From Symbiodinium natans (lineage: Eukaryota > Sar > Dinophyceae > Suessiales > Symbiodiniaceae), in assembly GCA_905221605.1 (NCBI GenBank), contig CAJNDS010002760.1:161501-225500 (forward strand): a stretch of DNA of 64,000 bases. Reading direction: 5' to 3'. This document shows, one piece after another, positions 4,457-61,199 of the stretch (its first letter is position 1; each line of letters begins with the position of its first letter). The notes under the pieces were generated by a model. The model saw nothing but the letters and a program-made list of their open reading frames with translations, ran no database searches and was not told the origin of the DNA. Position numbers and translations under genes: made by a program.

Positions 4457-7400
4457 GCGGGGTGTCTGCGGTCAGAGTTTCTTACTTCTCTAACAGCTGA
4501 ACTTTAAACTCTTTGGGTTCCCTTATTTAGTAGGAAGGAAAAAGGTTAATCTGTTCTTTTCCCTTGGTTATTGGAGAAGTAAGGTTTAGGGTTGAGGTCG
4601 ACCTCAGAACCCCAAAACGTAGCATCTGCAAGCTCCAAACCCTCCCATCCTAAACCCCCAAGCCCCTGTCAAACCCTCATGAGGCCCACCCACAAAAGTC
4701 AAGAACCCCTAAACCCTAAACCCAAAACCCCAAACCCTAAACCCTAAACCCTAAACCTCAAAGACACAACAAGCAAAGTCAAGAAACCCTAAACCCTAAA
4801 CCCCAAACCCTAAAACCCTAAACCCTAAACCTCAAAGACACAAGAAGCAGGCGCAGCTGGAAGACTTGTGGTCTGATTCGCGGCCCCCTCCGGGGCCGCT
4901 CAGCTTTGAGGAGGCCCTGTCGCGGGGGGCCTCAGAGGTTTAGGGTTTAGGGTTTAGGGTTTAGGGTTTAGGGTTTAGGGTTTACCTCTAATTGCTGAAG
5001 AACCCCGCAAAAAACGAAAAACGTTCCTCCTTACAAGGGCAATATAGGGATGCTCATTTCTTATATTTTTTGGGGAGGGGGGGGGTCTTAAGTAAATAGT
5101 ACTTTAGGGTTTAGGAATTTTGGGTTTAGGGTTTTAGGGATTGGTGTCCCGGACCGTGGCGGCTTGAGGGTTCAGAGGGCTTAGGGTGGTGTTCTGGCTC
5201 CAGGGTTTAGGGTTTAGGGTTTAGGGTTTAGGGTTGAGGGCTTCTCAGAGGCTCAGGGAGCCTTTACGGATGTTTTTTTATTTTTTTTGCGGGGGGGGTG
5301 GGGGGTGGGGGGTGGGCCGAACTCTTTAAAGGGGGGTTTGTAGGGGGCTTAAGGTTCATGGAATTGGGGTAGCTGCAAGAGTGTTGAAGGTTGTTGTTCA
5401 GGGCTTCTGGCGGTTTAGGGCTGAAACGCACAACAGTCCGACGTAAGTTCTATATGGCGGTTTGGGTAGGGGTCCACCCTAAACCTTCAGCCCTTAGCAC
5501 TGTACTATAGGTGCCGCGATAGTTAGAATAGGGGGCTCTTCTAGCATATTTATCTGGGGACCATAAGGTAATTCTATTTGTCTGTCGTCCCCGCCTTTGG
5601 CGCCACGGGCGCTTATACTCCGTGGTGCTTTACTGTAGCTTTAGATCCTTACCCTTTTTGGGGTTATTGGGTTTCTTAATAAGGCAGCTAAAAGTTTTGT
5701 TTATAGTTACCCTACTAAGTGCAGCCAAGTATACCTTCAAAGAACGCAAATGCTGAGGAAAACAGAGGCCACCGGCGACTCTGCCGACAAGGCCGGGGGA
5801 AGCACTAGGGTTTAGGGTTTTGGGGTTTAGGGTTTGGGGTTTAGGGTTTGGGGTTTAGGGTTTGGGGTTTAGGGTTTAGGGTTAACTCAAAGAGGGGCGG
5901 GGTGGCATCGATCAAGTTGCGGATGGTTTTGAACCTTTCCTTCGGGTACATGGTCCGATGCACCATGCGCATTAGGGTTTAGGGTTTAGGGTTGCGTTAC
6001 ATCAAACGTCAAGATCTTGCAGAGAAGGTCCTTGCAGAAAGGTTCCTACAGGGAATTGCCCTGAATCCTAAACTCCAAATACCTAAGCAAAGTTGTCAGC
6101 CTTACTTCGTTAAGACTCAGAGGGAATACGTGACAGAATTTACCCTTCACTCGGGTCAGTTTGGCGAGTTTCAACACGTGCCGGAGTCCAGCGACAACTA
6201 CCAATATCCGTCCCTAAACCCCAAACCCTAAACCCCAAAAACCCCTTAAACTTCCCTAAGCCCTAAACCCTAAACCCTACACCCTAAACCCTAAACCCTA
6301 AACCCTAAACGCCAGCCCTCGAGCCCGTTCGCAGGATAAGCTCGAGACGCAGAAAGTGCCCACCGTGGCCGCCGACGCGAAGGGCTTTGTAGCCAGCGCC
6401 GCTTTGGCTTAAGGAGCTAGGGTTTAGGGTTTAGGGTTGAGGGTTTAGGGTTTAGCGTTTAGGGGTCTAGGATTTAGGGTTCAGGGTTGAGGGGTGGGGG
6501 CAGTTAGGGTTTGGGATGCAGGGTTTAGGTTCAGGATTTAGAGTTTAGGGTTTAGGGTTTTCTTGAGCCCCGGAAAAACCATACTTACGACTCCCGACCA
6601 GTTTAAAATCTGATCCCAAAATGTCTTGAAGCGCCTTGTAGGGTCTACTTGAAGGCTCTCGGAACTCAGTAGGTTCGAAGCATAAGTGCACCCTACATTG
6701 GGTTATCCCAATTAGACGCGAGCTTTACTTACCATGATCTCCGAGCCCTCAAAGTCCCAACAACTAAGGGGCTAAGGTTGCTTATGTGCTTCGGGGCCCG
6801 ACAGGGGGGGTCTCAAGTTTGGAGCTTGTAGGGTTGAGGGTCCTAAACCCTAAACCCTAAACCCTGAACCCTGAACCCTGAACCCTGAACCCTGAACCCT
6901 GAACCCTAAACCCTAAACCCTAAACCCTAACATTACAAGTCTGCGGCATCCTATCAAGTCCCGCAAAAGGTTGCGAAGATGTACGGCGAGCGCAAGGACA
7001 TGCTTGGGCAGAGCTCGTTCAGCAAGGTGGGGGGGGGGGGGGGGGGTGGCTCCAGGGAGCCCCTACTTGGTTTAGGGTTTAGGGTTTAGGGTTTAGGGTT
7101 TAGGGTTTAGGGTTTAGGGTCTACGACCTCCAGAGAGCCCCTACTTTGGAGGTTGATGGGTACTTAGAACCCCAAGCATATGTCTACTCATAACCCACTT
7201 AGTTCATGGGTACTTGCAACCCCAATTTTTAAAGTCTACTTAGCACCTACTTAGAGAACTTAAGGGGGGCTTAGAATCTTAGAAGTACAGTTGTAGTTGC
7301 GGTTATAAGTTCCCTGAACCTCCAAGCAGGGTTCATGGATTGTGTTCTGAACAACCTACAAAAGCCCAAGCTCTCTCATGGGTGGAGTGTTGCCAACAAT

Positions 7401-10400
7401 CATGGGCAGGTTCTTCCTTGTCGGCTGCCGTCAGGGTTCGGGGAGTGCACAAGGTTTGCGGTCTCCAGAAAGCATGATGTCTCTCTTGTGTCCGAGGCTT
7501 TTTCTGTGTCTCGATATGTCCCCACCTGGGTTCAAGGTAAGGTTCAGGCTTGGGGTTGAGAGTTACAGAGAGCCAAAATTTGGGGAAGTTACCAGTTATT
7601 GCAATCCTTATAGAGCGCAGAATCCACGTGGAAGTTGACTACCGCAAGGGAAGCCTAAACCCTAAACCCTAAACCCTAAACCCGTTCTGCTTTTAAGGTT
7701 TCGGGCCCAGTGGCCATTACTTGGGGGGGCCAGAACCCCTGCACACCAAGCATTCAGGATTCCATTCTACACCCCAAGCTCTAAAGCAAATCCCTTCTAT
7801 AGCCCGGAACTCTAATCCAAACCCCGAAAGCCTAAACCCACCACCTGAAAACCTGAACCCTACAGTCAAAAGTTTCCAACCCTCAACCCCGAACCCCAAA
7901 CCCCAAACTCCCTTACTTCTCCAACAGCTGAACTTTAATTTTTTGGGTTCCCGTATATTTAGTAGGAATAGTAAAGTTTAACGTTTTTATTTCCTTGGTT
8001 CTTGGAGAAAGCCCCAACCCTTCGCAGCTCAACCCTAAACCCTTAACCCTAAACCCTAAACCCTAAACCCTAAACCCTAAACCCTTCGCAGCTCAAGCCC
8101 TCCTGGAGGATGACCCGGTGGCAATGGACTTCGTCCATTGTGCGGCCAACCTTCGAATGCAGAACTACCGCGTGCTGGCTCAGTTGGTCTGGGATTTAGG
8201 GTTTAGGGTTTAGGGTTTAGGGTTTAGGGTTTAGGGTTTAGGGTTTAGGGTTTAGGGTTTAGGGTTTAGGGTTTAGGGTTTAGGGGTTCACGGGATTGTT
8301 GGGCTGCAGGGTTTGGAGTTCGCAGGCTTTTGGGAAGGCCATAGACCCTAAGTGCAGCGACTTTGGGGGCTGAACCCTAAAGGGTTTAGGGTTTAGGGTT
8401 TAGGGCTTAGGGTTTAGGGTTTAGGGTTCAGGGTTCAGGGTTCAGGGTTTAGGGTTTAGGGAGTTGCTCGCAGCATCAGACACAGTCCACGATCTTCAGA
8501 ACTAGGCGCAAAAGAGCTCCGGCTTAGGGTAGTTCAGTGGTTTCCATACAAGCAAAGGATTAATTCAGCGGAACTCTTGGGAACTTGTCGCGGTGGCCCG
8601 CGCAGGCTTTAGGAATCAGGTGCGCCCTCGCCCGCGGTGCAGAGAATCGTCAATCCTAACCCCTCAGGCCCCACATCCCGGAGCTTCTAGGCCCTAGACC
8701 TCAAGTCCTGGAATCCTAGGTGCCTAAACCCCACAATATTCCGAAATCCCCCCCCCCCCCCCCCGAAAACCTAAACCCTAAACCCGCCTAAACCCTAAAC
8801 CCTAAACCCTAAACCCTAAACCCTAAACCCTAACCCCTAAACCCTTAACCCTAAACCCCCTCACACTGTTAAGAACCGGGCCATGCAACCTTGACACCCC
8901 TTCCACCTTTGACCTTGCGCATTCATGGCATGTTCAAGGTTGCCTTAACTAGGCTTCTCAGACTCCTGGGAGTACCCTATACTTCTTAGAAACCCTTAAA
9001 GGGACCTGTTTTTTTTGGATTTTCTCAGGGGGTCTGGGTTGTGCTTAGCCGAGGCATCTCCCGGCTATCAAGATGGGCAGCAACCTCGGGTAACCTCGGT
9101 GGTTGAGGGTTTAGGGTGTTAGGGCCTGCCCACCAATCCCTGTACAGGCCCGAAAAGTGTATACAGGGTACAAAGCCTCATTCCGCTATTCCTTACTGAG
9201 AACTCGTGCTCTTTCTGGGTCTTGGAGTACCATACTTTAATACTTTTTTTTGGTTCTGGGTTCCCATTATAGCTACTTCTACCTAAAAAGTATATACTTT
9301 TTTTCAGGGTTTACTCCAAAGCTAAGCTTTAGATCCTTCGATTTTCGGGATAGATGCAGGCAGCTCGAGGCAAGGAGTACTGCGGTCTTAGGTGGTTTGG
9401 AGATTGGGGTTGAGTTCCGCTGTCTAGTCCATTTGGGCTTTGGGCTCAGGCCTGAAGGCTATAACCCTAAAACCCTAAACCCTAAACCCTAAACCCTAAA
9501 CCCTAAACCCTAAACCAGCCTCAGAATCTATATACACTAAGGTTGTGTGGGAGCCGCGGCGCCCTTAAGAGCCCTAAACCCTACCTCAATAGGCTCCAAT
9601 GTGGTTCCTTTTTGGGTTTGCTATGGGGGGATTCTAGTATACTACCCCCAAAAAGGTACTACACAGGAGCCTTTGGTTTAGGGTTTAGGGTTTAGGGTTT
9701 AGGGTTTAGGGTTTGCTCGAACCGGTTTGCTTTGAATGTTTCGGGCTCAGGGCTCAGGGTTCTCTCTCGAGGCATGCCCCAAGAGCCCAGCACGCCTCAA
9801 TTAAGGAACAGACCTTTCAAATCATATGAAGGATCCCTATTATTAATTAAGAAATATTTTTCAATTAAGGAACATACCTTTCAAATCATATGAAGGATCC
9901 CTATTATAATTTTAGGAATAGTTCTTGGTGAAGGGGTATTGGTTGGGAGGTTCCCCCCTATACTAACAGTCCTTACTAAGGATTAGAGCACCCCCTATAA
10001 TCATCCCTATGAAATACTGTGAGTATAAGGGGGAAGATTTCAAGGTACTGGGCTCTTTGGGTGTAGGGTTACCCCCTTAATTTAGGAATATACCTTAAAC
10101 CATATAAAAGGATCCCAACTATAGATTATAGAATATTCCTTAATTCAGGCGTACTGGGCTCTTTGGGTGTAGGGTTAGGGTCTCCATGTCCGCTGGTCGG
10201 CCCAGGACGCGCAGTCCATCGCGGGTTCCATCATCCCTGCGGTAGCTCGCATCCCAGAGATGACGTCACGAAATCTGGCGCATGCGATGCATAAAAGGGT
10301 TAGTGTTTGGGGTTTTGTTTAGGGATTAGGGTTTAGGGTTTATAGGGTTTAGGGTTTTAGAGTTTAGAGACTTCAAACTTCTGGCCTAAAATTCCGAACC

Positions 10401-35404: not shown

Positions 35405-38040
35405 TCACGTCAGTCGTACTATGGAGGCCTCAGGAACAAGAACCAGGTAGTTCCTCTTTTCTCTTCTCTTTTTCTCCTCAATCCTAAAGTCGAAGGCTCT
35501 CGTGAGGAGAAGAGAAGGGAGAGAAGGAGGGAAAGATAAGAGGAACACGATTTTCATGGGAAGAGCCAAGAAAAGAATAGAAGAGAGATAAAACAAGGCG
35601 CAAAGAAGATGGTACTCTTCTTTATCTATCCTCTCTCCCTTATCTCTCCGTTCCCTCTGTCTTTTCGAAATGAGAAAAACAAAAAGAAAGATGAAAAGAA
35701 GAAGGGTTAGGAAAAGAGCCGAAGAGATAGGCCGAAAAGAGGGGTATGGTGAAGTACGGCAAAGGTCCACGCACAAGGAGTCACCTTCTGCTTACCCTTC
35801 CACTGCTTGATTTTACAAGCTCCTTTCTTGTGTTTTATCAGTTAAAATTAAAAGGAAACAGAAGGAGAGAAGGGAAAGGGAAGTGAGAGAGGAGAGACAA
35901 CAAGGAGGCCATTTTAATTTCCTGTGAGTTATCAAAAGGAATGCAATATTATGGGAAGAGCAATGGAAAAAAAGAGTGGAAGAGAAATTAAGACAGGAGA
36001 GGGAGGTGCAAAAATAAGGCAAAGAGAAGATGGTGCCGTTTTCATCTCACCTCTCGTTCTTATCTTCCTCTTCTCTGGTTCTTTTCCCTGTGAAATAAAA
36101 AAACAAAAGGAAGGACAATGAACATATAAAGGAACCCGTTTTCGTTTTCCGTTTGGGCACAAGGAAAAAAACAGAGGCGATAGGGCGAGAGGAGGGGTTT
36201 GCTGAAGCATGGGGAGGGTGTACGGGCAAGGGGCCAACTCCGCCCACTTCCCCCATCCATTGAAAGAGGAAAAGGAACAGGGCCTCCATTCCCCTCTTAT
36301 TCTTCCTTTCTTGCGTTTTTGTCGTTTAGAAGGGAACAGGAGAAGAGGAGGGAGAGAGAAGGAGAGAGGAGACATAAAAAGGGTTGCATTTTTAATGGGA
36401 AGAGCAAAGAAAAGACCAGAAGAGAGATGATGGGAGAAGAGGGGGAGAACAAAACAAGGCGCACAGAAAATGGGCAGATAAGAAGAGAGGAAAGGGAATG
36501 ACCAAGTACAATGAGGAGTTCTTCAATTTCCCTCCCTATCTCTTATGTTACTTTTCCTTCTTGTGGGGTGTCCCTTTTTCTCTTGAAGATGCAGAAAACG
36601 ATTGAAAAGGACACCCGTTCCATCGCCCATATGTAGGGAAAGAGAGAGAATCATGAGCATCAGCTGGGCTTGCTGCCAATCCAACATGGGCGTCCCTTTT
36701 AATCGCATTCTGTGTCCTTTTTCTCGCTTGAAGATGCAGAAAACGATCCAAAAGCACATCTGTTGGAGGAAGAGAGAAGGAGAGAGGAGAGATACCAAGG
36801 ATTGCATATTTAATGGGAAGAGCAAGGAAGAGAATAGAAGACAGATGAATAGAGAAGATGGCGCTCTTCTTTATCTATTCTCTCTCCCTTGTTTCTCCCT
36901 TCCCTCTCTCTTTTCGAAATGAGAAAAACAAAAAGGAAGAACTATGAGAAGGAGAAGAGTAAGGAAAGGAACAGAAGAGATAGGCCGAGAGGATGAATAT
37001 GATGGAGTATTATGGAAAGGCTCACGCGCAAGGAGTCACCCTCTGCTTACCTTTTCACTGCTTTATCATATGAGTTCCTTTCTTGTGTTTTATCAGTTAA
37101 AAGGAAGCGGAAGAAGAGAAGGGAAAGGGAAGTGAGAGAGGAAAGATAACAAGGATGCTATGTTTCCCGAAGCGTGCTGCAAGGAATAGAAGAGACAGGA
37201 AGCAAGGAGACGGAATCACAAAATAAGGCGCAAAGCTGTACATATCATCTCTCCCTTGTCTCTCCCTATTCCCTAAAAAAAAAAAAAAAACCATTCTTGC
37301 TTTTCACAGATAGGTTCCCTCTCTCCTCTTCAGGAAATCCCCTTTCCCTTATGTTGCTTGTTGAAGCGAATAAGAAAAATAGCAGATAAGAAGAGAGGAA
37401 AGGGTCAATTTCCCTCCCTATCTCTTATGTTGCTTTTCCTTCTTGTGGGGTGTCCCTGTTTCTCTTGAAGATGCAGAAAACGATTGAAAAGGACACCCGT
37501 TCCATCGCCCATGTGTAGGGAAAGAGAGAGAATCATGAGCATCAGCTGGGCTTGCTGCCAATCCAACATGGGCGTCCCTTTTAATCGCAGTCTGTGTCCT
37601 TTTTCTCGCTTGAAGATGCAGAAAACGATCCAAAAGCACATCTGTTGGAGGAAGAGAGAAGGAGAGAGGAGAGATACCAAGGATTGCATATTTAATGGGA
37701 AGAGCAAGGAAGAGAATAGAGGACAGATGAATAGAGAAGAGGGAGAGACAAAACAAGGCGCAGAGAAGATGGCACTCTTCTTTATCTATTCTCTCTCCCT
37801 TGTTTCTCCCTTCCCTCTTTCTTTTCGAAATGAGAAAAACAAAAAGGAAGAACTATGAGAAGGAGAAGAGTAAGGAAAGGAACAGAAGAGATAGGCCGAG
37901 AGGATGAATATGATGGAGTATTATGGAAAGGCTCACGCGCAAGGAGTCACCCTCTGCTTACCTTTCCACTGCTTTATCATATGAGTTCCTTTCTTGCGTT
38001 TTATCAGTTAAAAGGAAGCAGAAGAGAAGGGAAAAGCAAA
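35405..38040. repeat. Purine/pyrimidine-rich segment with internal ~882-bp repeat
   Basis: GGAGAAGAGAAGG and CTCTCTCCCTT tracts alternate. A segment at about 36524-37135 recurs at 37407-38030. Both contain ATCATGAGCATCAGCTG, a motif of the 17-19 kb minisatellite. Confidence 0.8.
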
Positions 38041-40075
38041 AATTGAGCCCAACATTTTAGGACCAGGGCTTGCGATCTGACTCTTTGGAGCAAAAATCGA
38101 TTCCAAAATCTTAGGGAACAGGGCTTGCGATGTTACTCTTTGGAGCAAGAAATGAGCCCAAAATCTTAAAGACCGGGGCTTGCGATTTCACCTTTTGGAG
38201 CAAATACTGGGCCCAAAATCTTAGGGACCAGGGCTTGCAATTTGACTCCGTGGAGCACAAATCGACCCGAAATCTTAGGGACCAGGGCTTGCGATTTGAC
38301 TCTGTGGAGCACAAATCGACCCCGAAAACTTAGGGACCAGGGCTTTCCATTTGACTCTTTGGAGCAAAAATCGACCCAAAAATCTAAGGGACCAGGGCTT
38401 GCAAAACCCCCCCCCAGTTTTCTTCTCCAAACACTCAAATCGCAAGCCCTGGTCCCTAAGATTTTGTGTTCATTTTTTGCTCCAAAGAGTGACATCGCAA
38501 GCCCTTGTCCCTAAGATTTTGGGCCCAGTTTTTGGTTCAAAGAGTCAAATCGCAAGCCCTGGTCCCTAAGATTTGGGGCCCAGTTTTTGCTCCAAAGAGT
38601 CAAACGGAGCAAAAATTGAACCCAAAATCTTAGGGACCAGGGCTTGCGATTTGACTCTTCGGAGCAAAAACTGGGCCCAAGATCTTAGGGACCAGGGCTT
38701 GCGATGTCACTCTTTGGAGCAACAATGAATGCAAAATCTTAGGGACCAGGGCCTGCGATTTGACTGTTTGGAGCAAAAATTGAACCCAAAATCTTAGGGA
38801 CCAGGGCTTGCGATTTGACTCTTTGGAGCAAAAACTGGGCCCCAGATCTTAGGGACCAGGGCTTGCGATGTCACTCTTTGGAGCAAAAAATGAACCCAAA
38901 ATCTTAGGGACCAGGGCTTGCGATTTGACTCTTTGGAGCAAAAACTGGGCCCCAATTCTTAGGGACCAGGGCTTGCGATGTCACTCTTTGGAGCAAAAAA
39001 CGAACCCAAAATCTTAAGGACCAGGGCTTGCGATGTCACTCTTTGGAGCAAAAATTAAACCCAAAATCTTAGGGACCAGGACTTGCGATGTCACTCTTTG
39101 GAGCAAAAACTGGGCCCCAAATCTTAGGGACCAGGGCTTGCGATTTGACTCTTTGGAGCAAAAACTGGGCCCAAAATCTTAGGGACCAGGGCTTGCGATG
39201 TTACTTTTTGGAGCAAAAACTGGGCCCCAAATCTTAGGGACCAGGGCTTGCGATGTCACTCTTTGGAGCAAAAATTGAACCCAAAATCTTAGGGACCAGG
39301 ACTTGCGATGTCACTCTTTGGAGCAAAAACTGGGCCCCCAATCTTAGGGACCAGAGCTTGCGATGTCACTCTTTGGAGCAAAAATTGAACCCAAAATCTT
39401 AGGGACCAGGGCTTGCGATTTGACTCTTCGGAGCAAAAACTGGGCCCCAAGCGATGTTACTCTTTGGAGCAAAGATTGAACCCAAAATCTTAGGGACCAG
39501 GGCTTGCGATTTGACCCTTTGGAGCAAAAACTGGGCCCAAAATCTTAGGGACCAGGGCTTGCGATTTGACTCTTTGGAGCAACTGGGCCCAAGATCTTAG
39601 GGACCAGGGCTTGCGATGTCACTCTTTTGGGCAACAAATGAGCCCAAAATCTTAGGGAGCAGGGCTTGCGATTTGACCCTTTGGAGCAAAAACTGTGCCC
39701 AAAATCTTAGGGACCAGGGCTTGCGGTTTGACTCTGTGGAGCAAAAATTGAACCCGAAATCTTCGGGACCAGGGCTTGCGATTTGACTCTTCGGAGCAAG
39801 AAATGAGCCCAAAATCTTAAGGGCCAGGGCTTGCTTTGGAGCAAAAAACTGAGTCCAAAATCTTAGGGACCAGGGCTTGCGATTTGACTCTTTGGAGCAA
39901 AAACGGGGCCCCAAATAATAGGGACCAGGGCTTGCGATGTTACTCTTTGGGGCAAGAAATGAGCCCAAAATCTTAGGGACCAGGGCTTGCGATGTTACTC
40001 TTTGGGGCAAGAAATGAGCTCAAAATCTTAGGGACCAGGGCTTGCGATGTCACTTTTGGAGCAAAAACTGTGCCC
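38041..40075 (+). repeat. 55-bp satellite, about 37 copies
   Basis: Unit: TTAGGGACCAGGGCTTGCGA, TTTGACTCTTTGGAGCAAAA, ACTGGGCCCCAAATC, alternating with versions having ATTGAACCCA. About 200 bp (38405-38604) is inverted. The CTTAGGGACCAGGG part resembles TTTAGGG only superficially. Confidence 0.93.
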
Positions 40076-40892: not shown

Positions 40893-40992
40893 NNNNNNNN
40901 NNNNNNNNNNNNNNNNNNNNNNNNNNNNNNNNNNNNNNNNNNNNNNNNNNNNNNNNNNNNNNNNNNNNNNNNNNNNNNNNNNNNNNNNNNNN
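40893..40992. other. Assembly gap (100 N)
   Basis: Exactly 100 N, a common placeholder for a gap of unknown size. It lies inside the palindromic array, so the true right end of block copy 1 is missing. Confidence 0.99.
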
Positions 40993-41010
40993 ATAAGGGG
41001 GAACATCCCA
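40993..41010. mobile_element. Right end of a family A element
   Basis: ATAAGGGGGAACATCCCAG directly after the gap; the rest of the element is in the gap. Confidence 0.5.
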
Positions 41011-41097
41011 GGGTACATCCTCTAAACCCCCCCTTAAACCCTAAACCCTAAACCCTAAACCCTAAACCCTAAACCCTAAGCCCATCCGGGTCTGGAG

Positions 41098-41206
41098 GAT
41101 GTGCCGCGCGGAGGCGGCGACCCGGTCGAATGCGGTGGCGAGCTGGGTGCAGCAGCGCTTTCAGGCGAATCTATACGGCTGTGGGCATCGTTCAGTCGCC
41201 ACCCTG
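41098..41206 (+). other. Exon-like island
   Basis: CCCTAAA array upstream (41034-41075), then GGTCTGGAG|. Two frames are open; one (ASWVQQRFQANLYG) looks more protein-like, the other fits the acceptor. It ends CACCCTG|GTTTAG at a TTTAGGG array (41207-41262). It could be a 5' exon of the downstream glycosyltransferase gene. Confidence 0.38.
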
Positions 41207-41524
41207 GTTTAGGGTTTAGGGTTTAGGGTTTAGGGTTTAGGGTTTAGGGTTTAGGGTTTCAGTTTAGGGTTGCAAGCTAGAAACCCGAAAGCCCCTGCCT
41301 GTCCCCTGCCTCGGGACCGCTAACCTTCGATAGCACTCCCTGCCAGGCATCGCACTCTCGCCCTTAATCTATTCTTGGTTTTTTTTTTGGGGGGGGAACC
41401 TGATCCTCAGGGTTGTTTAGGGTTTGAGGGTTTTCGGGTTTTAGGGTTTAGGGTTTAGGGGTTGGGTAGTCCCTTCTCACGCCTAGGACCCATACGTCGC
41501 CTAAGCCCTGAGCGTGTTTGCCAG

Positions 41525-41600
41525 GCGCTCGGCGTTGCCGGAGACAACAGCTTGCCACGCGGCGATGCAGAATCAAAGCTTGGCGAACTGCCCGAGGAGA
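41525..41600 (+). CDS. Candidate exon upstream of the glycosyltransferase exons
   Basis: GTTTGCCAG| before and GAGGAGA|GTGAGT after, both strong. It encodes ALGVAGDNSLPRGDAESKLG followed by ELPEE. The phase does not fit the next exon directly, so an exon may be missing or it belongs elsewhere. Confidence 0.48.
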
Positions 41601-41835
41601 GTGAGTGATGCAGCAGTTTCGGGACCCTAAACATCCCTAAACCCTATAAACTTGGGGTGTAGGGTTATAAGCCCTTAAGCCTTTCAAAAGGCGGAGCAAG
41701 GTTTTTACTAGGGGATGTTCTGGGGCCGCCATTGGGGTCTTGACTGGAGTTTTCATTTCTTCGGGTTTAGGGCTTTAGGGTTTGAGGCTGGCAGCAGCAG
41801 CTACAATCAAGTTATCCATGGTCCAATTTTTTCAG

Positions 41836-41898
41836 CCGGAGGACCTCCAGAATCTGGGAAATGCGCTGACAGAGCTGCTTTCACGAACGCAGACAAAG
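41836..41898 (+). CDS. GT77-like exon (PEDLQNLGNALTELLSRTQT)
   Basis: Acceptor CCAATTTTTTCAG| with a clear pyrimidine tract; donor AAAG|GCCATGG, a GC donor. 21 codons in phase 0 with the next exon. Confidence 0.65.
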
Positions 41899-44800
41899 GC
41901 CATGGAGTTCCCCCTAAACCCTAAACCCTAAACCCTAACCCCTAAGCCCCTAAACCCCTAAACCCCTAAACCCCTAAACCCCTAAACCCCTAAACCCCTA
42001 AACCCCTAAACCCCTAAACCCCTAAACCCCTAAACCCCTAAACCCCTAAACCCCTAAACCCCTAAACCCTAAACCCTAAACCCTAAACCCTAACCCCTAA
42101 ACCCTAAACCCTAAACCAGGCCATGGATTTCCAACCTCTGCTGGTGACCTGGACCACCGGTGAGAAGAGCTTCGTGCAACAGGCCATGCATGGTGTGCAC
42201 CGCAGTCGTGCACTTAGGGTTTAGGGTTTAGGGTTTAGGGTTTAGGGTTTAGGGTTGTGGGTTGTGGGTTGTGGGGTTCGGAAGAATTACTCATGGTATT
42301 TTCTTATGGTCCCTATATCAATATACCATAACAACCCCCAAAAATCCAATTCTGATTGTTATTAAGGCCCCTAAATTAGTACCTGTGGCTTGCTTTCAGT
42401 CATGCTCCTCTTGATGGCATGCACTGACCCGGCTTGTGCGTTTCATGGCGTTCGCGTTCAGGCCCTCAACCTTGCATTGTCCATCCGACGCAACGTGCCG
42501 CATCTGGAGCATCGTTTTGTCGTCGTGGCAATGGACGCACGGGCCTACAAGGAGTTGAAGGACGAAGGCTTCCACTCACTTCTGTACTCAAGCGGCACGT
42601 CCGACCTGTCTGACTTGATTTGGAAATTTCGTTGGTGGCTCTTGCTTGTAGCGGTGAGATATGGTTTACGCCTGGCCGTGGTGGACTCCGACGTTGTTGC
42701 GTTTCGAGATCCATTTCCTCTTCTGGGCCATGATGCTGACATGGAGATTGCTACTGAGCATTTCTGGCCACAGAAGCATCTGTGGAAAGGCTGGGGGGCC
42801 CAGAAATAGCTACGTTGGCCTTGGCTGGCAAGAATGCCTATAGGCCTTTATCCGCACTTGTGGCACATGAACTGACTGAGGGCTGAGCCTCAAAACCTGA
42901 ATCTTACCCCCAAACCCTGAACCCTGAACCCTAAACCCTAAACCCCAAAGCCTAATGGTCATTCCTCTTGGAGGCTGGGTACGGCCTGAGGACGATCTTA
43001 GCACTGGCTTCATCTACGTCCAACCATCTCGAAAATTGGGGGCCTTTCTGGATGCCTTTCTTTCGGACCCTCGCACTTGTTTTGGCCTTGCCCTAAACCC
43101 TAAACCGTAAACCTTAAACCCTAAACCCTAAAGACCTAAAGCCAAAAGCCTAAAGAGCCTAAAGAGCCTAAAGAGCCTAAAGAGCCTAAAGAGCCTAAAG
43201 AGCCTAAAGAGCCTAAAGAGCCTAAAGAGCCTAAAGAGCCTAAAGCCTAAAGCCTAAAGAGCCTAAAGCCTAAAGCCAGCAGCCAAAAGCCAAAAGCCAA
43301 AAGCCAAAAGGCCCAGCAGCTGCGGGCTTCCTCTTTCCTCTTTCGCGCGCATCGGGCATCTGGGGCGCTGCTGAACTCAGGCCAACGCCGATGAAGTACT
43401 GCCTGGCAGACTCTTGCGCGACCCGTTCGACCAGAGGGTCTTCAACAAGCAGGGGGCTTGGTTGGAACCCTAAACCCTAAACCCCAAACCCCAAGCCCTA
43501 AAGCCCTACGTACGACCCCAATCTCCCCTAAGCCGACCCAGTGGCACGCTGCAACAACCCTAAGCCCACAACACTCTAGACCCGAGGCTTTTAGGATTCT
43601 GAGCTCAGGGTTTCGACCTTTCGCTCCATCCATGTTGCACCGCTTGCACACGAGTTATACATCGTATCAGCCCCATGGAACCCCATAGTACGGCCTCAAG
43701 CCCGACAGGCCGTGTAAGCCCTTCAGCGCCTATTGTAAGCCAAAACCCCAGACCCTACAAGCCCTATCAGCCTGAACCCTAACCCTTCCAACTCTCGACC
43801 CGATAACCCTGATGTTGCCCAAAACCCTACACGTCCCATAAGACCAGACCATATACACCCTAAAACCCTAAATTTAAAGATCCTCAACCCTAAACAAACC
43901 CTCAGCCATCTACCCTGAATCCAACCCTCAGCCCCCGAACCCTCACCCTAAACCCTAAACCCTAAACCCTAAACCCCAAACCCCAAACCCCAAACCCTAA
44001 ACCCTAAACCCTAAACCCTAAACCCATCCGCAGGTTCGTGCGACGCGTGGCGGCTCGCTGCTCGCCCTGCGTGCAAGGCCTGTACGAGGACCTGGCGCTG
44101 GTGGTGGCGTCAGGCCAGAGCCGGAGCCCGCAAGTTGAGTTTGGGGTTTAGGTTTAGGGTTTAGGGTTTAGGGTTTAGGGTTTAGGGCTTAGTACGGTTT
44201 AGGGTTTAGCTTTTATAAGTTTGCATGCAATCTGCCCTAAATGGGGAGGCTTCGGGCCTTGCCTGGATCTGCGACCTCATTCATCATTTCATATCTTGTG
44301 GCACCAAGTAGAGCCCGTCATGAGACCAACCGCACGTTGAAGTCTTGCAGCAACGTTTGGCCTACGACTGTGCATACGTTGATCATGGGCACCCCTCTCT
44401 AGACTACCTTGGTTCCCCCCTTAGATGACTTTAATTAAGCGTAATTGTCCCCCAAACAGGCCTAAACCCTAAACCCTAAACCCTATACCCTAAACCCTAA
44501 ACCCTAAACCCTAAACCCTAAACCCTAGGGGTAGTATAGAGGGGGATAGTAGGGGGACCCATGAGTTGAGTAGGCGAGGCTGGCCCGGTTGCTGGAGATG
44601 CCCTGCGCGTGCGAGTCCTGGATCCCAGAGAGGCCGCTTTCTGCACGTTTAGGGTTTAGGGTTTAGGGTTTAGGGTTTAGGGTTTAGGGTTCAGGGTTTA
44701 GGGTTTAGGGTTGCCCAAAACCCCAAAATCCCCTGAAGCACCTAAACCCTAAACCCTAAGTCCCCTCAAGGCACTCCTCCCCCCCAAAAACCCTAAAGGG

Positions 44801-45334
44801 GGCCTTCCGTCGAGTGCCTTAGGTCGTGGCCAATGGGGTGAATTTCTTCTGGCGAAAAGCTCATCTTCAAGGCCTTCGGAACGCAGGGGATTGAGGATTC
44901 AGGGATTGTAGGGTATATGGGCTTTAGGGTTTAGGAGCTTGTCTCGGGGCTTTAGGGTTTAGGGATTTTGGGTTTAGGGGCTTTATTTGTAATTTTAGGG
45001 TCAAGGGGCTTTAGGGTTTAATTAGAGGTTTCAGACAATCAGGGGCTTCGTGCTCCTATTCTATTTTTCCGGGGAAGCTGTTTTCTTCTCCCCAGATGTC
45101 GTCCGAAAGTATGCTTCCCCACATTTTTCGCAGTCGCATCCTCAAGGCCCGCGGACCATGCCTGCCTTGGCTCACGCGAACGGCGTTGGGCCGAAAGAAT
45201 ATTTCCTCCAAGATCGGGGCGTCTGGTTCCTGGATGACCTCCGCGACTCCCGGGCGCATATGTGGGATGTCTTGGGGCTCTTCGCCCTGTACACCCCTGA
45301 ACCCCAAATTCAGCTCCGGAACCCTAAACCCTGA
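41836..45334 (+). CDS. Glycosyltransferase family 77-like nucleotide-sugar transferase, multi-exon
   Basis: The exons encode motifs of the nucleotide-diphospho-sugar transferase domain (GT77, Pfam PF03407 type): PLLVTW near the start, FVVVAMDARAYKEL, the DxD-type sugar-nucleotide/metal site VVDSDVVAFRDPF, DLSTGFIYVQPS, DPFDQRVFN, NGVNFF, and AHANGVGPKEYF with WFLDD. Enzymes of this family transfer sugars from nucleotide donors, usually in the Golgi; the acceptor here cannot be inferred. Exons: 41836-41898, 42120-42204, 42400-42789, 42974-43089, 43381-~43455, 44823-~44886, 45096-~45334. Introns 41899-42119, 42790-42973 and 43090-43380 are GC-AG, 42205-42399 GT-AG, all phase-consistent. The join from DQRVFN to 44823 and the N-terminus are unresolved. 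The last frame ends in telomere-type repeat (NPKP, TGA). Confidence 0.78.
41899..42119 (-). repeat. Intron made almost entirely of CCCCTAAA/CCCTAAA repeat
   Basis: After GCCATGGAGTTCC, about 205 of the 221 bp are telomere-type repeat, seventeen or so of the units being uniform CCCCTAAA (41937-42062). AGGCCATGGA-G/T-TTCC stands at both ends (41898-41912 and 42119-42133), so the intron is flanked by a 15-nt direct repeat with one mismatch. Confidence 0.88.
42120..42204 (+). CDS. GT77-like exon (AMDFQPLLVTWTTGEKSFVQ)
   Basis: AACCAG| before; CGCA|GTCGTG after joins in frame to 42400 (ATC ATG CTC). The acceptor lies directly at the end of the repeat array. Confidence 0.62.
42215..42258 (+). repeat. 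TTTAGGG array
   Basis: Six units and three GGGTTGT units near the start of the 42205-42399 intron. Confidence 0.88.
42283..42388. mobile_element. Family F element near an acceptor
   Basis: GAATTACTCATGGTATTTTC, TTATGGTCCC, ending TTAAGGCCCCTAAATTAGTAC. It lies 12 bp before the exon at 42400. Confidence 0.55.
42400..42789 (+). CDS. GT77-like main exon with DxD motif
   Basis: Acceptor TTGCTTTCAG|TC. About 130 codons including HLEHRFVVVAMDARAYKEL, LAVVDSDVVAFRDPFPL and MEIATEHFWPQ. The GC donor AAAG|GCTGGG gives GGC TGG GTA across the junction; without splicing a TAG follows at 42807. Confidence 0.85.
42790..42973 (-). other. GC-AG intron with CCCTGAA/CCCTAAA array
   Basis: 184 bp. AGGCTGGG occurs at both ends (42788-42795 and 42972-42979). 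The array is at 42908-42950. Confidence 0.72.
42974..43089 (+). CDS. GT77-like exon (DLSTGFIYVQPSRKLGAF)
   Basis: GWVRPEDDLSTGFIYVQPSR then KLGAFLDAFLSDPRTCFGL. STGFIYV corresponds to the conserved NTGFxYV. The donor CTT|GCCCTAAACC is the first base pair of a telomere-type array. Confidence 0.82.
43090..43310 (-). repeat. CCCTAAA units and CCTAAAGAG array in an intron
   Basis: The intron begins with CCCTAAA units, then about eleven uniform 9-bp CCTAAAGAG units (43152-43245), then AGCCAAA repeats. Confidence 0.9.
43381..43455 (+). CDS. GT77-like exon (DPFDQRVFN)
   Basis: Acceptor TGAACTCAG|GCC, phase 0 with the preceding exon (FGL-ANADEVLPGRLLRDPFDQ). DQxVFN is a hallmark of GT77-like domains. 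The 3' end is uncertain. Confidence 0.75.
43456..44822. other. Long intron or unresolved exon region
   Basis: CCCTAAA arrays at 43467-43500, 43948-44025 and 44461-44527; TTTAGGG at 44152-44185 and 44647-44712. Exon-like islands: about 43608 (FRSIHVAPLAHELYIV), 44034-44132 (QGLYEDLALVVASGQS), about 44352 (RLAYDCAYVDHGHPSLDYL), 44574-44646 (ARLARLLEMPCACESWIPER, ending GCAC|GTTTAG). Some may be real exons; their order could not be resolved. Confidence 0.45.
44823..44886 (+). CDS. GT77-like exon (VVANGVNFFWRKAHLQGLRN)
   Basis: Acceptor TGCCTTAG|GTC. NGVNFF is typical of the family. Ending at GCAG it joins AT|GTC of the next exon in frame (NA-DVVRKY), but the donor would be GG and is doubtful. 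Confidence 0.58.
44887..45095 (+). other. Intron with TTTAGGG-like sequence
   Basis: Degenerate GGGTTTAGG units throughout, ending in TTTTCTTCTCCCCAG|. Confidence 0.55.
45096..45334 (+). CDS. GT77-like C-terminal exon (AHANGVGPKEYFLQDRGVWF)
   Basis: Acceptor TTCTCCCCAG|. DVVRKYASPHFSQSHPQGPR continues TMPALAHANGVGPKEYF and FLDDLRDSRAHMWDVLGLF. HANxxxGxKE matches the C-terminal end of GT77-like domains. The frame runs into CCCTAAA repeat and stops at TGA (45332-45334), so the true end may be upstream or downstream. Confidence 0.72.
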
Positions 45335-45390
45335 ACCCTCCTAAACCCTAAACCACTCTTTCATATATAATATAAATGTTAATGACTTTG

Positions 45391-45970
45391 CGGGCAAGGT
45401 CCTATATTTAGCGGGCAAGGTCCTATATTTAGCGGGCAAGGTCATATATTTAGCGGGCAAGGTCATATATTTAGCGGGCAAGGTCATATATTTAGCGGGC
45501 AAGGTCATATATTTAGTGGGCAAGGTCCATTGGCTAAAAAAAGACCTTGCCCACTAAATATATGACCTTGCCCGCTAAAGGGCGACCTTGCCCACTAAAT
45601 ATAGGACCTTGCCCGCTAAATATAGGACCTTGCCCGCTAAATATAGGACCTTGCCCGCTAAATATATGACCTTGCCCGCTAAATATATGGCCCGGGCCAG
45701 GTCATATATTTAGCGGGCAAGGTCATATATTTAGCGGGCAAGGTCCTATATTTAGCGGGCCAGGTCATATATTTAGCGGGCAAGGTCATATATTTAGCGG
45801 GCAAGGTCCTATATTTAGCGGGCAAGGTCCTATATTTAGCGGGCAAGGTCCTATATTTAGCGGGCAAGGTCCTATATTTAGCGGGCAAGGTCCTATATTT
45901 AGTGGGCAAGGTCATATATTTAGCGGGCAAGGTCATATATTTAGCGGGCAAGGTCATATATTTAGCGGCC
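45391..45970. repeat. 21-bp satellite with an inverted middle section
   Basis: Unit: GCGGGCAAGGTCATATATTT plus A. Forward at 45391-45528, reversed at 45541-45690, forward again at 45698-45967. As 21 is a multiple of 3 the unit reads as a repeating LPAKYMT heptapeptide on the minus strand; I see no other evidence of coding. Confidence 0.93.
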
Positions 45971-46136
45971 ACCCCCCACCCCCGCCCCCCACAACCCACC
46001 TACCCCCCCCCCACCCTCCCACCCCCCCCCCCCCCACCCCCCCCCCCACCCCCCAACCGCCCCCCCCCCTAAAAAAAAAACCCAACACCACTCCCCTCCC
46101 CGGCCCCGGACCCCCCCCCCCCCCCGCCCCCCCCCC
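45971..46136. repeat. C-rich low-complexity segment
   Basis: Mostly C with A and a few G; borders block copy 2. Confidence 0.85.
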
Positions 46137-46221
46137 GTGGGTGGCTTAAATAGGGTCTATTTGGAAGCTGGGACTCGGGTTTTCTTATAGCCATACACGT
46201 TTCCACGAGGGTACGCTGCTG

Positions 46222-48848
46222 TCACGTCAGTCGTACTATGGAGGCCTCAGGAACAAGAACCAGGTAGTTCCTCTTTTCTCTTCTCTTTTTCTCCTCAATC
46301 CTAAAGTCGAAGGCTCTCGTGAGGAGAAGAGAAGGGAGAGAAGGAGGGAAAGATAAGAGGAACACAATTTTCATGGGAAGAGCCAAGAAAAGAATAGAAG
46401 AGAGATAAAACAAGGCGCAAAGAAGATGGTACTCTTCTTTATCTATCCTCTCTCCCTTATCTCTCCGTTCCCTCTGTCTTTTCAAAATGAGAAAAACAAA
46501 AAGAAAGATGAAAAGAAGAAGGGTTAGGAAAAGAGCCGAAGAGATAGGCCGAAAAGAGGGGTATGGTGAAGTACGGCAAAGGTCCACGCACAAGGAGTCA
46601 CCTTCTGCTTACCCTTCCCCTGCTTGATTTTACAAGCTCCTTTCTTGTGTTTTATCAGTTAAAATTAAAAGGAAACAGAAGGAGAGAAGGGAAAGGGAAG
46701 TGAGAGAGGAGAGACAACAAGGAGGCCATTTTAATTTCATGTGAGTTATCAAAAGGAATGCAATATTATGGGAAGAGCAATGGAAAAAAAGAGTGGAAGA
46801 GAAATTAAGACAGGAGAGGGAGGTGCAAAAATAAGGCAAAGAGAAGATGGTGCCGTGTTCATCTCACCTCTCGTTCTTATCTTCCTCTTCTCTGGTTCTT
46901 TTCCCTGTGAAATAAAAAAACAAAAGGAAGGACAATGAACATATAAAGGAACCCGTTTTCGTTTTCCGTTTGGGCACAAGGAAAAACAGAGGCGATAGGG
47001 CGAGAGGAGGGGTTTGCTGAAGCATGGGGAGGGTGTACGGGCAAGGGGCCAACTCCGCCCACTTCCCCCATCCATTGAAAGAGGAAAAGGAACAGGGCCT
47101 CCATTCCCCTCTTATTCTTCCTTTCTTGCGTTTTTTTCGTTTAGAAGGGAACAGGAGAAGAGGAGGGAGAGAGAAGGAGAGAGGAGACATAAAAAGGGTT
47201 GCATTTTTAATGGGAAGAGCAAAGAAAAGACCAGAAGAGAGATGATGGGAGAAGAGGAGGAGACAAAACAAGGCGCACAGAAAATGGGCAGATAAGAAGA
47301 GAGGAAAGGGAATGACCAAGTACAATGAGGAGTTCTTCAATTTCCCTCCCTATCTCTTATGTTACTTTTCCTTCTTGTGGGGTGTCCCTTTTCTCTTGAA
47401 GATGCAGAAAACGATTGAACAGGACACCCGTTCCATCGCCCATATGTAGGGAAAGAGAGAGAATCATGAGCATCAGCTGGGCTTGCTGCCAATCCAACAT
47501 GGGCGTCCCTTTTAATCGCATTATGTGTCCTTTTTTCTCGCTTGAAGATGCAGAAAACGATCCAAAAGCACATCTGTTGGAGGAAGAGAGAAGGAGAGAG
47601 GAGAGATACCAAGGATTGCATATTTAATGGGAAGAGCAAGGAAGAGAATAGAAGACAGATGAATAGAGAAGATGGCGCTCTTCTTTGTCTATTCTCTCTC
47701 CCTTGTTTCTCCCTTCCCTCTTTCTTTTCGAAATGAGAAAAACAAAAAGGAAGAACTATGAGAAGGAGAAGAATAAGGAAAGGAACAGAAGAGATAGGCC
47801 GAGAGGATGAATATGATGGAGTATTATGGAAAGGCTCACGCGCAAGGAGTCACCCTCTGCTTACCTTTTCACTGCTTTATCATATGAGTTCCTTTCTTGT
47901 GTTTTATCAGTTAAAAGGAAGCGGAAGAAGAGAAGGGAAAGGGAAGTGAGAGAGGAAAGATAACAAGGATGCTATGTTTCCCGAAGCGTGCTGCAAGGAA
48001 TAGAAGAGACAGGAAGCAAGGAGACGGAATCACAAAATAAGGCGCAAAGCTGTACATATCATCTCTCCCTTGTCTCTCCCTATTCCCTTTCGAACTAGAA
48101 AAAACCATTCTTGCTTTTCACAGATAGGTTCCCTCTCTCCTCTTCAGGAAATCCCCTTTCCCTTATGTTGCTTTTTGAAGCGAATAAGAAAAATAGCAGA
48201 TAAGAAGAGAGGAAAGGGTCAATTTCCCTCCCTATCTCTTATGTTGCTTTTCCTTCTTGTGGGGTGTCCCTGTTTCTCTTGAAGATGCAGAAAACGATTG
48301 AAAAGGACACCCGTTCCATCGCCCATGTGTAGGGAAAGAGAGAGAATCATGAGCATCAGCTGGGCTTGCTGCCAATCCAACATGGGCGTCCCTTTTAATC
48401 GCAGTCTGTGTCCTTTTTTCTCGCTTGAAGATGCAGAAAACGATCCAAAAGCACATCTGTTGGAGGAAGAGAGAAGGAGAGAGGAGAGATACCAAGGATT
48501 GCATATTTAATGGGAAGAGCAAGGAAGAGAATAGAAGACAGATGAATAGAGAAGAGGGAGAGACAAAACAAGGCGCAGAGAAGATGGCACTCTTCTTTAT
48601 CTATTCTCTCTCCCTTGTTTCTCCCTTCCCTCTTTCTTTTCGAAATGAGAAAAACAAAAAGGAAGAACTATGAGAAGGAGAAGAGTAAGGAAAGGAACAG
48701 AAGAGATAGGCCGAGAGGATGAATATGATGGAGTATTATGGAAAGGCTCACGCGCAAGGAGTCACCCTCTGCTTACCTTTCCACTGCTTTATCATATGAG
48801 TTCCTTTCTTGTGTCTTATCAGCAGAAGAGAAGGGAAAAGCAAAAATT
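46222..48848. repeat. Purine/pyrimidine-rich segment, copy 2
   Basis: Counterpart of 35405-38040, with the same internal repeat (47340 and 48223) and ATCATGAGCATCAGCTG motifs at 47463 and 48347. Confidence 0.85.
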
Positions 48849-50993
48849 GAGCCCAACATTTTAGGACCAGGGCTTGCGATCTGACTCTTTGGAGCAAAAA
48901 TCGATTCCAAAATCTTAGGGACCAGGGCTTGCGATGTTACTCTTTGGAGCAAGAAATGAGCCCAAAATCTTAAAGACCGGGGCTTGCGATTTCACCTTTT
49001 GGAGCAAATACTGGGCCCAAAATCTTAGGGACCAGGGCTTGCAATTTGACTCCGTGGAGCACAAATTGACCCCGAAATCTTAGGGACCAGGGCTTGCGAT
49101 TTGACTCTGTGGAGCACAAATCGACCCCGAAAACTTAGGGACCAGGGCTTGCGATTTGACTCTTTGGAGCAAAAATCGACCCAAAAATCTGAGGGACCAG
49201 GGCTTGCGATTTTACTCTTTGGCGCAAAAACTGGGCCCCAAATCTTAGGGACCAGGGCTTGCGATGTCACTCTTTGGAGCAAAATTGAACCCAAAGTCTT
49301 AGGGACCAGGGCTTGCGATTTGACTTTTTGGAGCAAAAACTGGGCCCAAAATCTTAGGGACAAGGGCTTGCGATGTCACTCTTTGGAGCAAAAAATGAAC
49401 CCAAAATCTTAGGGGCCAGGGCTTGCGATTTGACTCTTTGGAGCAAAAACTGGGCCCCAAATCTTAGGGACCAGGGCTTGCGATTTGACTCTTTGGAGCA
49501 AAAATTGAACCCAAAATCTTAGGGACCAGGGCTTGCGATTTGACTTTTCGGAGCAAAAACTGGGCCCAAGATCTTAGGGACCAGGGCTTGCGATGTCACT
49601 CTTTGGAGCAACAATGAATGCAAAATCTTAGGGACCAGGGCCTGCGATTTGACTCTTTGGAGCAAAAATTGAACCCAAAATCTTAGGGACCAGGGCTTGC
49701 GATTTGACTCTTTGGAGCAAAAACTGGGCCCAAGATCTTAGGGACCAAGGGCTTGCGATGTCACTCTTTGGAGCAAAAAATGAACCCAAAATCTTAGGGA
49801 CCAGGGCTTGCGATTTGACTCTTTGGAGCAAAAACTGGGCCCCAAATCTTAGGGACCAGGGCTTGCGATGTCACTCTTTGGAGCAAAAAACGAACCCAAA
49901 ATCTTAAGGACCAGGGCTTGCGATGTCACTCTTTGGAGCAAAAATTGAACCCAAAATCTTAGGGACCAGGGCTTGCGATTTGAATCTTTGGAGCAAAAAC
50001 TGGGCCCCAAATCTTAGGGACCAGGGCTTGCGATGTCACTCTTTGGAGCAAAAAATGAACCCAAAATCTTAGGGACCAGGGCTTGCGATGTTACTCTTTG
50101 GAGCAAAAACTGGGCCCCAAATCTTAGGGACCAGGGCTTGCGATGTCACTCTTTGGAGCAAAAATTGAACCCAAAATCTTAGGGACCAGGGCTTGCGATT
50201 TCACTCTTTGGAGCAAAAACTGGGCCCCAAATCTTAGGGACCAGGGCTTGCGATTTGACTCTTTGGAGCAAAAATTGAACCCAAAATCTTAGGGACCAGG
50301 GCTTGCGATTTGACTCTTCGGAGCAAAAACTGGGCCCCAAATCTTAGGGACCAGGGCTTGCGATGTTACTCTTTGGAGCAAAGATTGAACCCAAAATCTT
50401 AGGGACTAGGGCTTGCGATTTGACCCTTTGGAGCAAAAACTGGGCCCAAAATCTTAGGGACCAGGGCTTGCGATTTGACTCTTTGGAGCAACTGGTCCCA
50501 AGATCTTAGGGACCAGGGCTTGCGATGTCACTCTTTTGGGCAAGAAATGAGCCCAAAATCTTAGGGAGCAGGGCTTGCGATTTGACCCTTTGGAGCAAAA
50601 ACTGTGCCCCAAATCTTAGGGACCAGGGCTTGCGGTTTGACTCTGTGGAGCAAAAATTGAACCCGAAATCTTCGGGGCCAGGGCTTGCGATTTGACTCTT
50701 CGGAGCAAGAAATGAGCCCAAACTCTTAAGGACCAGGGCTTGCTTTGGAGCAAAAAACTGAGTCCAAAATCTTAGGGACCAGGGCTTGCGATTTGACTCT
50801 TTGGAGCAAAAACTGGGCCCCAAATAATAGGGACCAGGGCTTGCGATGTTACTCTTTGGGGCAAGAAATGAGCCCAAAATCTTAGGGACCAGGGCTTGCG
50901 ATGTTACTCTTTGGGGCAAGAACTGAGCTCAAAATCTTAGGGACCAGGGCTTGCGATGTCACTTTTTGGAGCAAAAACTGTGCCCTAGTATTG
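48849..50993 (+). repeat. 55-bp satellite, copy 2, about 39 units
   Basis: Same unit as 38041-40075. The stretch corresponding to the inverted part of copy 1 is in forward orientation here. Confidence 0.93.
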
Positions 50994-51350
50994 GGGGGAG
51001 GAGGGCTCGTGATTTAGTATTGGGAGGAGGCCCGGGCTCGTAAATTAGTATTGCGGGGAGGCCCGGCTCGTGATTTAGTATTGCGGGAGGCCCGGGCTCG
51101 TGATTTAGTATTGGGGGGAGGCCCGGGCTCGTGATTTAGTATTGGGGGGAGGCCCGGCCTCGTAATTTGGAGGCCCGGGCTCGGGATTTAGCCCGGGCTC
51201 GTGATTTAGTATTGGGGGGAGGCCCGGGCTCGTGATTTAGTATTGCGGGAAGGCCCGGGCTCGTAATTTAGTATTGGGGGGAGGCCCGGGCTCGTGATGT
51301 AGTATTGGGGGGAGGCCCGGGCTCGTGGTTTAGTATTGGGGGGAGGAGGA
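50994..51350 (+). repeat. 31-bp satellite, copy 2
   Basis: Same unit and nearly the same series of variants as 40076-40436. Confidence 0.9.
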
Positions 51351-51359
51351 TGCCCCAGC

Positions 51360-53856: not shown

Positions 53857-53865
53857 TGCACACGC

Positions 53866-60998: not shown

Positions 60999-61199
60999 TT
61001 GCTAGACCAGTGGTGCCTTGCACCCTTTTTTGGTTCTGGGTTGAAGGGTTTAGGGTTTTAGGGTTTAGGCTTTAGGGTTTTGGGTTTAGGGTTAAGGATT
61101 TAGGGTTTGGGGTTTAGGGTTAGGGTTTAGGGTTCCCTGCTAAAGTAACCAACCGAAAAAAGGTGCCCTGATTTTCAATATGGTTCTTGGGCTACCAAG
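60999..61199. mobile_element. Family B element split by a TTTAGGG array
   Basis: TTGCTAGACCAGTGGTGCC...TTTTTTGGTTCTGGGTT, then about 90 bp of TTTAGGG/TTTTAGGG repeats (61046-61133), then CCCTGCTAAAGTAACC...TTGGGCTACCAAG. GGGTT stands on both sides of the array. Confidence 0.75.

Follow-up and report, generated by a model that had tools for sequence, protein, structure and literature searches.

A predicted intron composed almost entirely of telomere-type repeat in a GT77-type gene of Symbiodinium natans

The GT77-type gene and its introns

Symbiodinium natans is a free-living dinoflagellate (PMC11114475). The 64-kb stretch of its DNA analysed here (the window) carries a gene with five exons and four defined introns (Table 1), whose exon-joined protein matched profile PF03407 with 38.5 bits (cut-off 22). 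This profile is Nucleotid_trans, and the name GT77 is that of the preliminary description. The match covers residues 59-205, beyond the part encoded by exons A and B. Two DUF matches and one DOP1 match in the profile searches stayed below the cut-off.

An annotated S. natans protein, P0001, matches the window gene at 99% over the aligned columns, and the donors of introns 3 and 4 were placed by its junctions (HLWKG|WVRPEDD in the case of intron 3). Its gene model (42402-43473) begins within intron 2, at an ATG, and stops at the TAA of a CCCTAAA unit; the site of intron 1 is outside its coverage. The model is truncated by telomere array, and the same may apply elsewhere in the S. natans genome. 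All four introns contain telomere arrays (Table 1), and a single array base, at the end of exon E, falls within the five exons. At the borders of introns 2 and 3 there are also short direct repeats, CAGGCC and AGGCTGGG, respectively.

Table 1. Features of the GT77-type gene and other arrays discussed in the text (window positions)
Feature	Position	Strand	Remarks
Second array with a long direct repeat	7050..7146	.	CTCCAGGGAGCCCCTACTT, 18/19; array 7069-7123
Third repeat-bracketed array	8016..8096	.	AACCCTTCGCAGCTCAA at 8016 and 8080; overlaps E1/UBA2-like exon start
Exon A	41836..41898	+	PEDLQNLGNALTELLSRTQTK, preceded by TTTTTTCAG; in-phase join; similar to P0002 N-terminus
Direct repeat, copy 1	41897..41911	+	AGGCCATGGAGTTCC; supplies GC donor (AAAG|GCC)
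Predicted intron 1	41899..42119	+	GC-AG; 206 of 221 nt telomeric
Telomere-type array	41912..42117	-	TTTAGGG on minus strand; 7-mer ends, 16-unit 8-mer core
Direct repeat, copy 2	42118..42132	+	AGGCCATGGATTTCC; supplies AG acceptor (CCAG|GCC)
Exon B	42120..42182	+	AMDFQPLLVTWTTGEKSFVQQ; QPLLVTWTTGE(K/R)SFVQQ common to P0002
Intron 2	42183..42461	+	GC-AG, CAG|GCC at both ends; 57 of 279 nt telomeric (array 42214-42270); 63 nt in P0002
Exon C	42462..42789	+	ALNLALSIRRN...HLWKG; GT77 core with DSD motif; PF03407, P0001
Intron 3	42790..42973	+	GC-AG, AG|GCTGGG at both ends; 48 of 184 nt telomeric (array 42908-42955); 59 nt in P0002
Exon D	42974..43065	+	WVRPEDDLSTGFIYVQPSRKLGAFLDAFLS; P0001
Intron 4	43066..43380	+	GA-AG; 135 of 315 nt telomeric; P0001 junction FLS|ANADEV
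Exon E	43381..43470	+	ANADEVLPGRLLRDPFDQRVFNKQ...; P0001, sequence; annotated end runs into next array
Array in dispersed repeat	61032..61134	+	copies 62040-62145 and 31385-31520 array-free; 74% identity, 109 columns

The preliminary description of this DNA had pointed to a segment, 41899-42119, made up to about 93% of telomere-type repeat, with a direct repeat at both boundaries, whose removal joins two GT77-like coding stretches in phase 0. All of this was borne out; the end of the coding stretch that follows, set at 42204, had to be corrected, as exon B ends at 42182. A segmentation HMM delimited a 206-nt CCCTAAA/CCCCTAAA telomere-type array, which runs from three CCCTAAA units, a CCCTAA and a CCCCTAAG through fifteen CCCCTAAA into mostly CCCTAAA units; its core thus consists of 16 8-mers, with the 7-mers mostly at both ends. 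Perfect 7- and 8-mers alone make up 185 of the 221 nt of the predicted intron. The two repeat copies, AGGCCATGGAGTTCC and AGGCCATGGATTTCC, agree at 14/15 positions and lie directly against the array on each side, so that no non-telomeric base lies between them.

The boundaries AAAG|GCC...CCAG|GCC give a GC donor, an AG acceptor and a restored phase 0, as in dinoflagellate spliceosomal introns: 41836-41898 joined to 42120-42182 reads PEDLQNLGNALTELLSRTQTK-AMDFQPLLVTWTTGEKSFVQQ across the predicted junction of ACAAAG with GCCATGGATTTC, and the presumed ancestral, uninterrupted site would be CAGACAAAGGCCATGGATTTCCAA-like. GC-AG and GA-AG introns are common in Symbiodiniaceae (PMC11453091, PMC7789003), and the GC-AG borders and boundary repeats of introns 1-3 and the GA-AG borders of intron 4 agree with what these sources describe. 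Unlike the introns described there, intron 1 is nearly all telomere array and has a 15-bp repeat. Its peculiarity lies in the combination: almost the whole predicted intron is an array, it is surrounded by a long flush repeat, and it is located inside a coding exon. The observation of array, repeat and in-phase join is sound, and judging from the sequence the splicing of 41899-42119 is probable.

Several other features of the window were noted. Positions 41000-44900 recur on contig C1816 (G000:C1816:270435-274342), identical at 3901/3901 aligned bases, with a single 7-nt difference within an AGCCTAA repeat; upstream of the 100-N gap of the window (40893-40992) a wider alignment gave no match to C1816. 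Either redundant assembly or a misjoin at this gap is the probable cause of the duplicate. A long open frame without telomere arrays occupies 1-2190; by eye it resembles a retrotransposon polyprotein with a reverse transcriptase motif. Satellites of 52 bp and 55 bp, together with other repeats, form blocks at 17082-18906, 38035-40075 and 45355-56678, in which the HMM found no telomere arrays.

Telomere-type arrays in the window and the assembly

The HMM found 148 arrays of at least 18 nt in the window, arrays making up 25.7% of its non-satellite part, and exact telomeric 21-mers occur in it 236 times (0 in 100 shuffles). In the 759,417,921-bp assembly the telomeric 21-mer has 1,184,385 + 1,185,204 = 2,369,589 overlapping matches, compared with 33 + 41 = 74 for a reversed control 21-mer. 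The 148 window arrays and these 2.37 million matches rule out that array 41912-42117 is a unique oddity. Boundaries and lengths vary from array to array, and the register departs weakly from uniformity (70 starts, p = 0.03; 61 ends, p = 0.06). Fifteen further stretches, one of them on the same contig as the window and together 146,990 bp long (including 5,000 N), had telomeric fractions of 0 to 17%. Array density in these stretches (L018-L032) is very uneven, reaching 15-17% in some 10-kb stretches and near zero in others. Nine IMG/VR contigs (L001-L009) contain (CCCTAAA)4; they may derive from eukaryotes or algal viruses that have telomere-type repeats.

Direct repeats lying flush with the arrays were scored against mismatched flanks taken from other arrays. 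The score of array 41912-42117 (11) was reached by 1 of 1360 mismatched flank pairs. Scores of at least 8 were found for 5/136 arrays of the window (148 found, 12 dropped) versus 4/1360 controls, and for 6/141 arrays of the further stretches (150 found, 9 dropped because of edges, homopolymers or N) versus 1/846 controls. Some of these rows are doubtful: 4784-4831 belongs to a 74-bp tandem duplication, and 11212-11347 and L022:8061 match through telomere-like letters. Once they are dropped, the counts are 3/134 vs 4/1360 (Fisher, p = 0.019) and 5/140 vs 1/846 (p = 0.0003), the controls in these reduced counts not being cleaned in the same way as the arrays. Of the three window cases left, 12967-13000 lies within a longer repeat of 35 bp and is perhaps also a tandem duplication; the same could hold for L019:8131, whose second copy is followed by AGGGTTT. 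The L019 stretch has flush repeats of 16/16 and 19/19. A direct repeat as a general feature of arrays was rejected, as most of them lack one.

A comparison of clean 15-mer pairs located 60-599 bp apart in the window showed a match of at least 14/15 for 618 of 11.57 million, most of them in tandem or low-complexity DNA. Of the clusters outside such DNA, two (7050 and 41897) flank telomere arrays, and four (3123, 10044, 31091 and 61677) have little or no array between their copies. Non-telomeric inserts lie between long direct repeats at 3121-3313, 10045-10177 (a 27/27 repeat at 10045/10151) and 31091-31415; some of them overlap dispersed palindromic elements of ~100 bp, and they possibly constitute another mobile family with long duplications.

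Two more arrays of the window are bracketed by long repeats (Table 1). The one at 7069-7123 has a 4-nt filler on its right side (7124-7127). The one at 8028-8085 scores 17, but 6 in a stricter test, because the AACCCT of AACCCTTCGCAGCTCAA is itself telomere-like. Its right AACCCTTCGCAGCTCAA copy overlaps 8088-8183, an exon-like piece with similarity to ubiquitin/SUMO-activating E1 (best E 2.4e-4 by itself, 2.4e-5 together with downstream pieces). As the acceptor region itself seems to lie within the repeat, the array would have lengthened an intron rather than created one. Exon-like E1 (UBA2-like) pieces lie at 8088-8183, 10194-10289 and 11121-11186, with arrays between them. The first two have PDB sequence matches and the third is a guess; an E1 motif scan gave nothing informative.

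Array-free counterparts were sought among 58 junction-spanning matches, which were mostly due to telomere-like similarity or to duplicate or overlapping loci; three informative cases were chosen by eye. In addition to the dispersed repeat at 61032 (Table 1), the array L018:8068-8143 lies in a dispersed repeat that has an array-free copy elsewhere (76% over 82 columns), and two L019 arrays lie at one position of one dispersed repeat with array-free copies elsewhere. The L018 array has a 7-bp ATACGTA on both sides, 4 nt away on the left; TACGTA occurs once in the L018 array-free copy and is absent from the array-free copy of the window. With array-free copies of repeats, and with flush repeats above control, the arrays behave like insertions.

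Origin of intron 1

One homologue is P0002, a 206-aa protein from 'ena' that is 61% identical and not a close relative. Apparently it represents unspliced genomic DNA, with introns 2 and 3 of 63 and 59 nt: it continues from FVQQ through 21 aa to ALN, and from HLWKG through 19 residues to AGCGLKTI, whose codons read in frame +1 could give WVRPEDD (0/2000 random peptides could). No telomere-like peptide was seen by eye in these two read-through introns. P0002 has introns 2 and 3 in the same places, and in the window both carry arrays, which thus appear to have entered old introns there. At site 1 the alignment has 16 residues of P0002 against 17 of the window protein, which leaves no room for an intron, and the array thus appears to sit where P0002 has plain open sequence. 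This array-free counterpart is at the protein level only and, as P0002 is not a close relative, it may have lost an intron. Structure prediction for P0002 was uninformative (mean pLDDT 35), and tblastn found no GT77 relatives in the genome-contig and viral-contig collections.

A paralogue on contig C1887 has a single 294-aa open frame that spans the positions of introns 2 and 3 and extends upstream; being without these introns, it may be a retrocopy. Because its similarity begins at query residue 26-28, after junction 1 (21/22), it is no more than compatible with an uninterrupted site 1 and adds little.

Based on these observations, we suggest, with rather more confidence than doubt, that a telomere array was inserted into an exon of the GT77-type gene in the S. 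natans lineage through repair of a staggered break, and that a duplicated AGGC provided both splice sites. Insertion of the array into the exon is in itself likely. A staggered double-strand break in the exon would, most likely, have been under repair when telomerase extended a 3' end, or telomeric DNA or RNA was captured, and filling in of the staggered ends would have duplicated 15 bp. Because the duplicated target contains AGGC, both splice sites would have been supplied, copy 1 giving the AG|GC donor and copy 2 the AG|GC acceptor, and removal from the first GC to the second AG would restore the presumed ancestral coding sequence. The motifs CUAAC and CUAAA resemble the branch-point consensus. 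As the C-rich RNA (CCCUAAA/CCCUAAC) is pyrimidine-rich and has many such branch-point-like motifs, the insert could be spliceable from the start. The 8-mer core would have grown later, probably by slippage. Splicing, timing, slippage and telomerase as the agent are parts of this scheme that we infer. Inspection of the junctions by eye revealed no clear in-register microhomology at the 3' ends of 41912; it is possible at 8028 and L019:8131. Break repair accounts for the pure telomere insert, the minority of arrays with a duplication, the filler and the array-free counterparts.

It is rather unlikely that the array lies in a 5' leader, CAG|GCCATGG being a spliced-leader acceptor together with the true start, exon A non-coding and no intron present. 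GCCATGG is a good start-codon context, P0002 has a Met at the same position as its ATG, and the similarity of C1887 too begins only past this point. Dinoflagellate mRNAs are, moreover, trans-spliced (PMC7789003). However, exon A resembles the N-terminus of P0002 (a local protein similarity score reached by 10/5000 shuffles) and joins exon B in phase, and the C1887 frame is open for ~145 codons upstream of its similarity, which is not by itself proof of coding.

Introns 2 and 3, with positions common to P0002, arrays in the window and short direct repeats at their edges, raise the question of whether intron 1 is likewise an ordinary older intron later overrun by telomere repeats. We regard this as unlikely, given that no non-telomeric base is left between the repeat copies and that the residues of P0002 at this site leave no space for an intron.

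The longest flush repeats, of 15-19 bp, would also fit target-primed reverse transcription. Intron 1 could be a true introner, i.e. a member of a mobile family with a telomere-like payload, moved by a transposase or by target-primed reverse transcription (e.g. of telomeric-repeat RNA); we consider this improbable. Introners, which have been reported in dinoflagellates, resemble intron 1 in inserting into exons, in carrying duplications in many families, in taking splice sites that may come from the insertion site and in usually leaving mRNA length unchanged (Gozashti et al. 2022, PMC9860276; Farhat et al. 2021, PMC7789003). Where characterised introners carry a duplication, it is 3-9 bp long (4 bp, with terminal inverted repeats, in S. 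microadriaticum), whereas the duplication here is 15 bp and the other repeats taken as real are 7-19 bp. An inverted-repeat scan of 41850-42180 found no terminal inverted repeats, its one 9-nt pair being located in exons, and membership in an introner family of that kind is therefore rejected. Moreover, the body of intron 1 has no family sequence besides a simple telomere repeat like that of the 148 window arrays; array ends and lengths vary, and most arrays lack long repeats. Terminal inverted repeats occur in 72/177 scorable introner families and target-site duplications in 49/130 (PMC9860276), and membership keeps a small chance because some families have neither. The preliminary description had seen here an introner-like insertion into an exon, spliced out as a GC-AG intron. 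Insertion into an exon is supported by the flush 15-bp duplication, the restored phase, P0002 and the three array-free repeat cases; the likeness to introners gains no support as membership.

Finally, an assembly artefact or pseudogene, in which the array or its flanking DNA is misassembled or the gene is dead, is very improbable: the gap at 40893-40992 and the identical C1816 copy of the post-gap sequence, suggestive of redundant assembly, speak for it, but the intron is identical on both contigs (which would not count as independent if they are redundant), the exons have open frames and are conserved, and gene model P0001 exists.

Interstitial telomeric insertions as a possible source of introns

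Interstitial telomeric insertion at repaired breaks appears to be a better family than introners for intron 1. In the mammalian loci of Nergadze et al. (2007, PMC2246262), as here, short internal arrays have array-free counterparts (in S. natans at the protein level in P0002 and at the DNA level for other arrays). The junctions of the mammalian loci are clean, deleted, with filler or duplicated, a target duplication occurring in a minority (6/130 rodent and 4/25 primate loci); in S. natans, flush repeats at a minority of arrays and one 4-nt filler may reflect a similar mixture. On the other hand, species-specific mammalian loci number in tens, compared with the ~2.37 million overlapping 21-mer matches of the S. 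natans assembly. In-register microhomology, which points to telomerase, is strong in mammals, whereas in S. natans the register bias is weak and microhomology is possible at two sites. Another mark of such insertions is the presence, at some junctions, of telomerase RNA fragments. The available text of PMC2246262 does not report an insert becoming an intron.

The repeat that flanks intron 1 also has a parallel in intron gain. In Daphnia, introns were reportedly gained by repair of staggered double-strand breaks, with a short flanking direct repeat arising from end fill-in, as Li et al. are said to have described in 2009. The fill-in repeat is alike; at intron 1 the filler is telomere repeat, and thus of recognisable source.

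The literature consulted on dinoflagellate introns, introners and interstitial telomeric intron gain, as far as available, yielded no telomere-repeat intron; that on interstitial telomeric sequences and intron gain yielded a fungal study. In the text available, 'telomer' and 'TTTAGGG' are absent from PMC10666404 and 'telomer' from PMC9860276 and PMC11114475, and telomeric introns are not described in the available parts of PMC11508785, PMC7023079 and PMC11453091.

As a tentative and somewhat doubtful extension, telomere insertion at breaks on a genome scale, probably by telomerase, might be a standing source of new and lengthened introns in S. natans. On this genome-scale reading telomere arrays would be preadapted as introns, because their C-rich strand reads as a pyrimidine tract with branch points. 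If true, introns would be made by an endogenous repair reaction and not by a transposon. The birth of introns independently of transposons is still an unsettled matter, since the inserted DNA can seldom be recognised. The insert of intron 1 is self-labelled by its telomere repeat, its flanking repeat is intact at 14/15, and an uninterrupted site exists in a homologue. With more than 2 million telomeric 21-mer matches, and with duplications or array-free counterparts for some arrays, intron birth by break repair would become countable and datable. A telomere array becoming an intron would be a new route of intron birth, and dinoflagellates would lend themselves to testing whether telomerase acts at sites other than chromosome ends.
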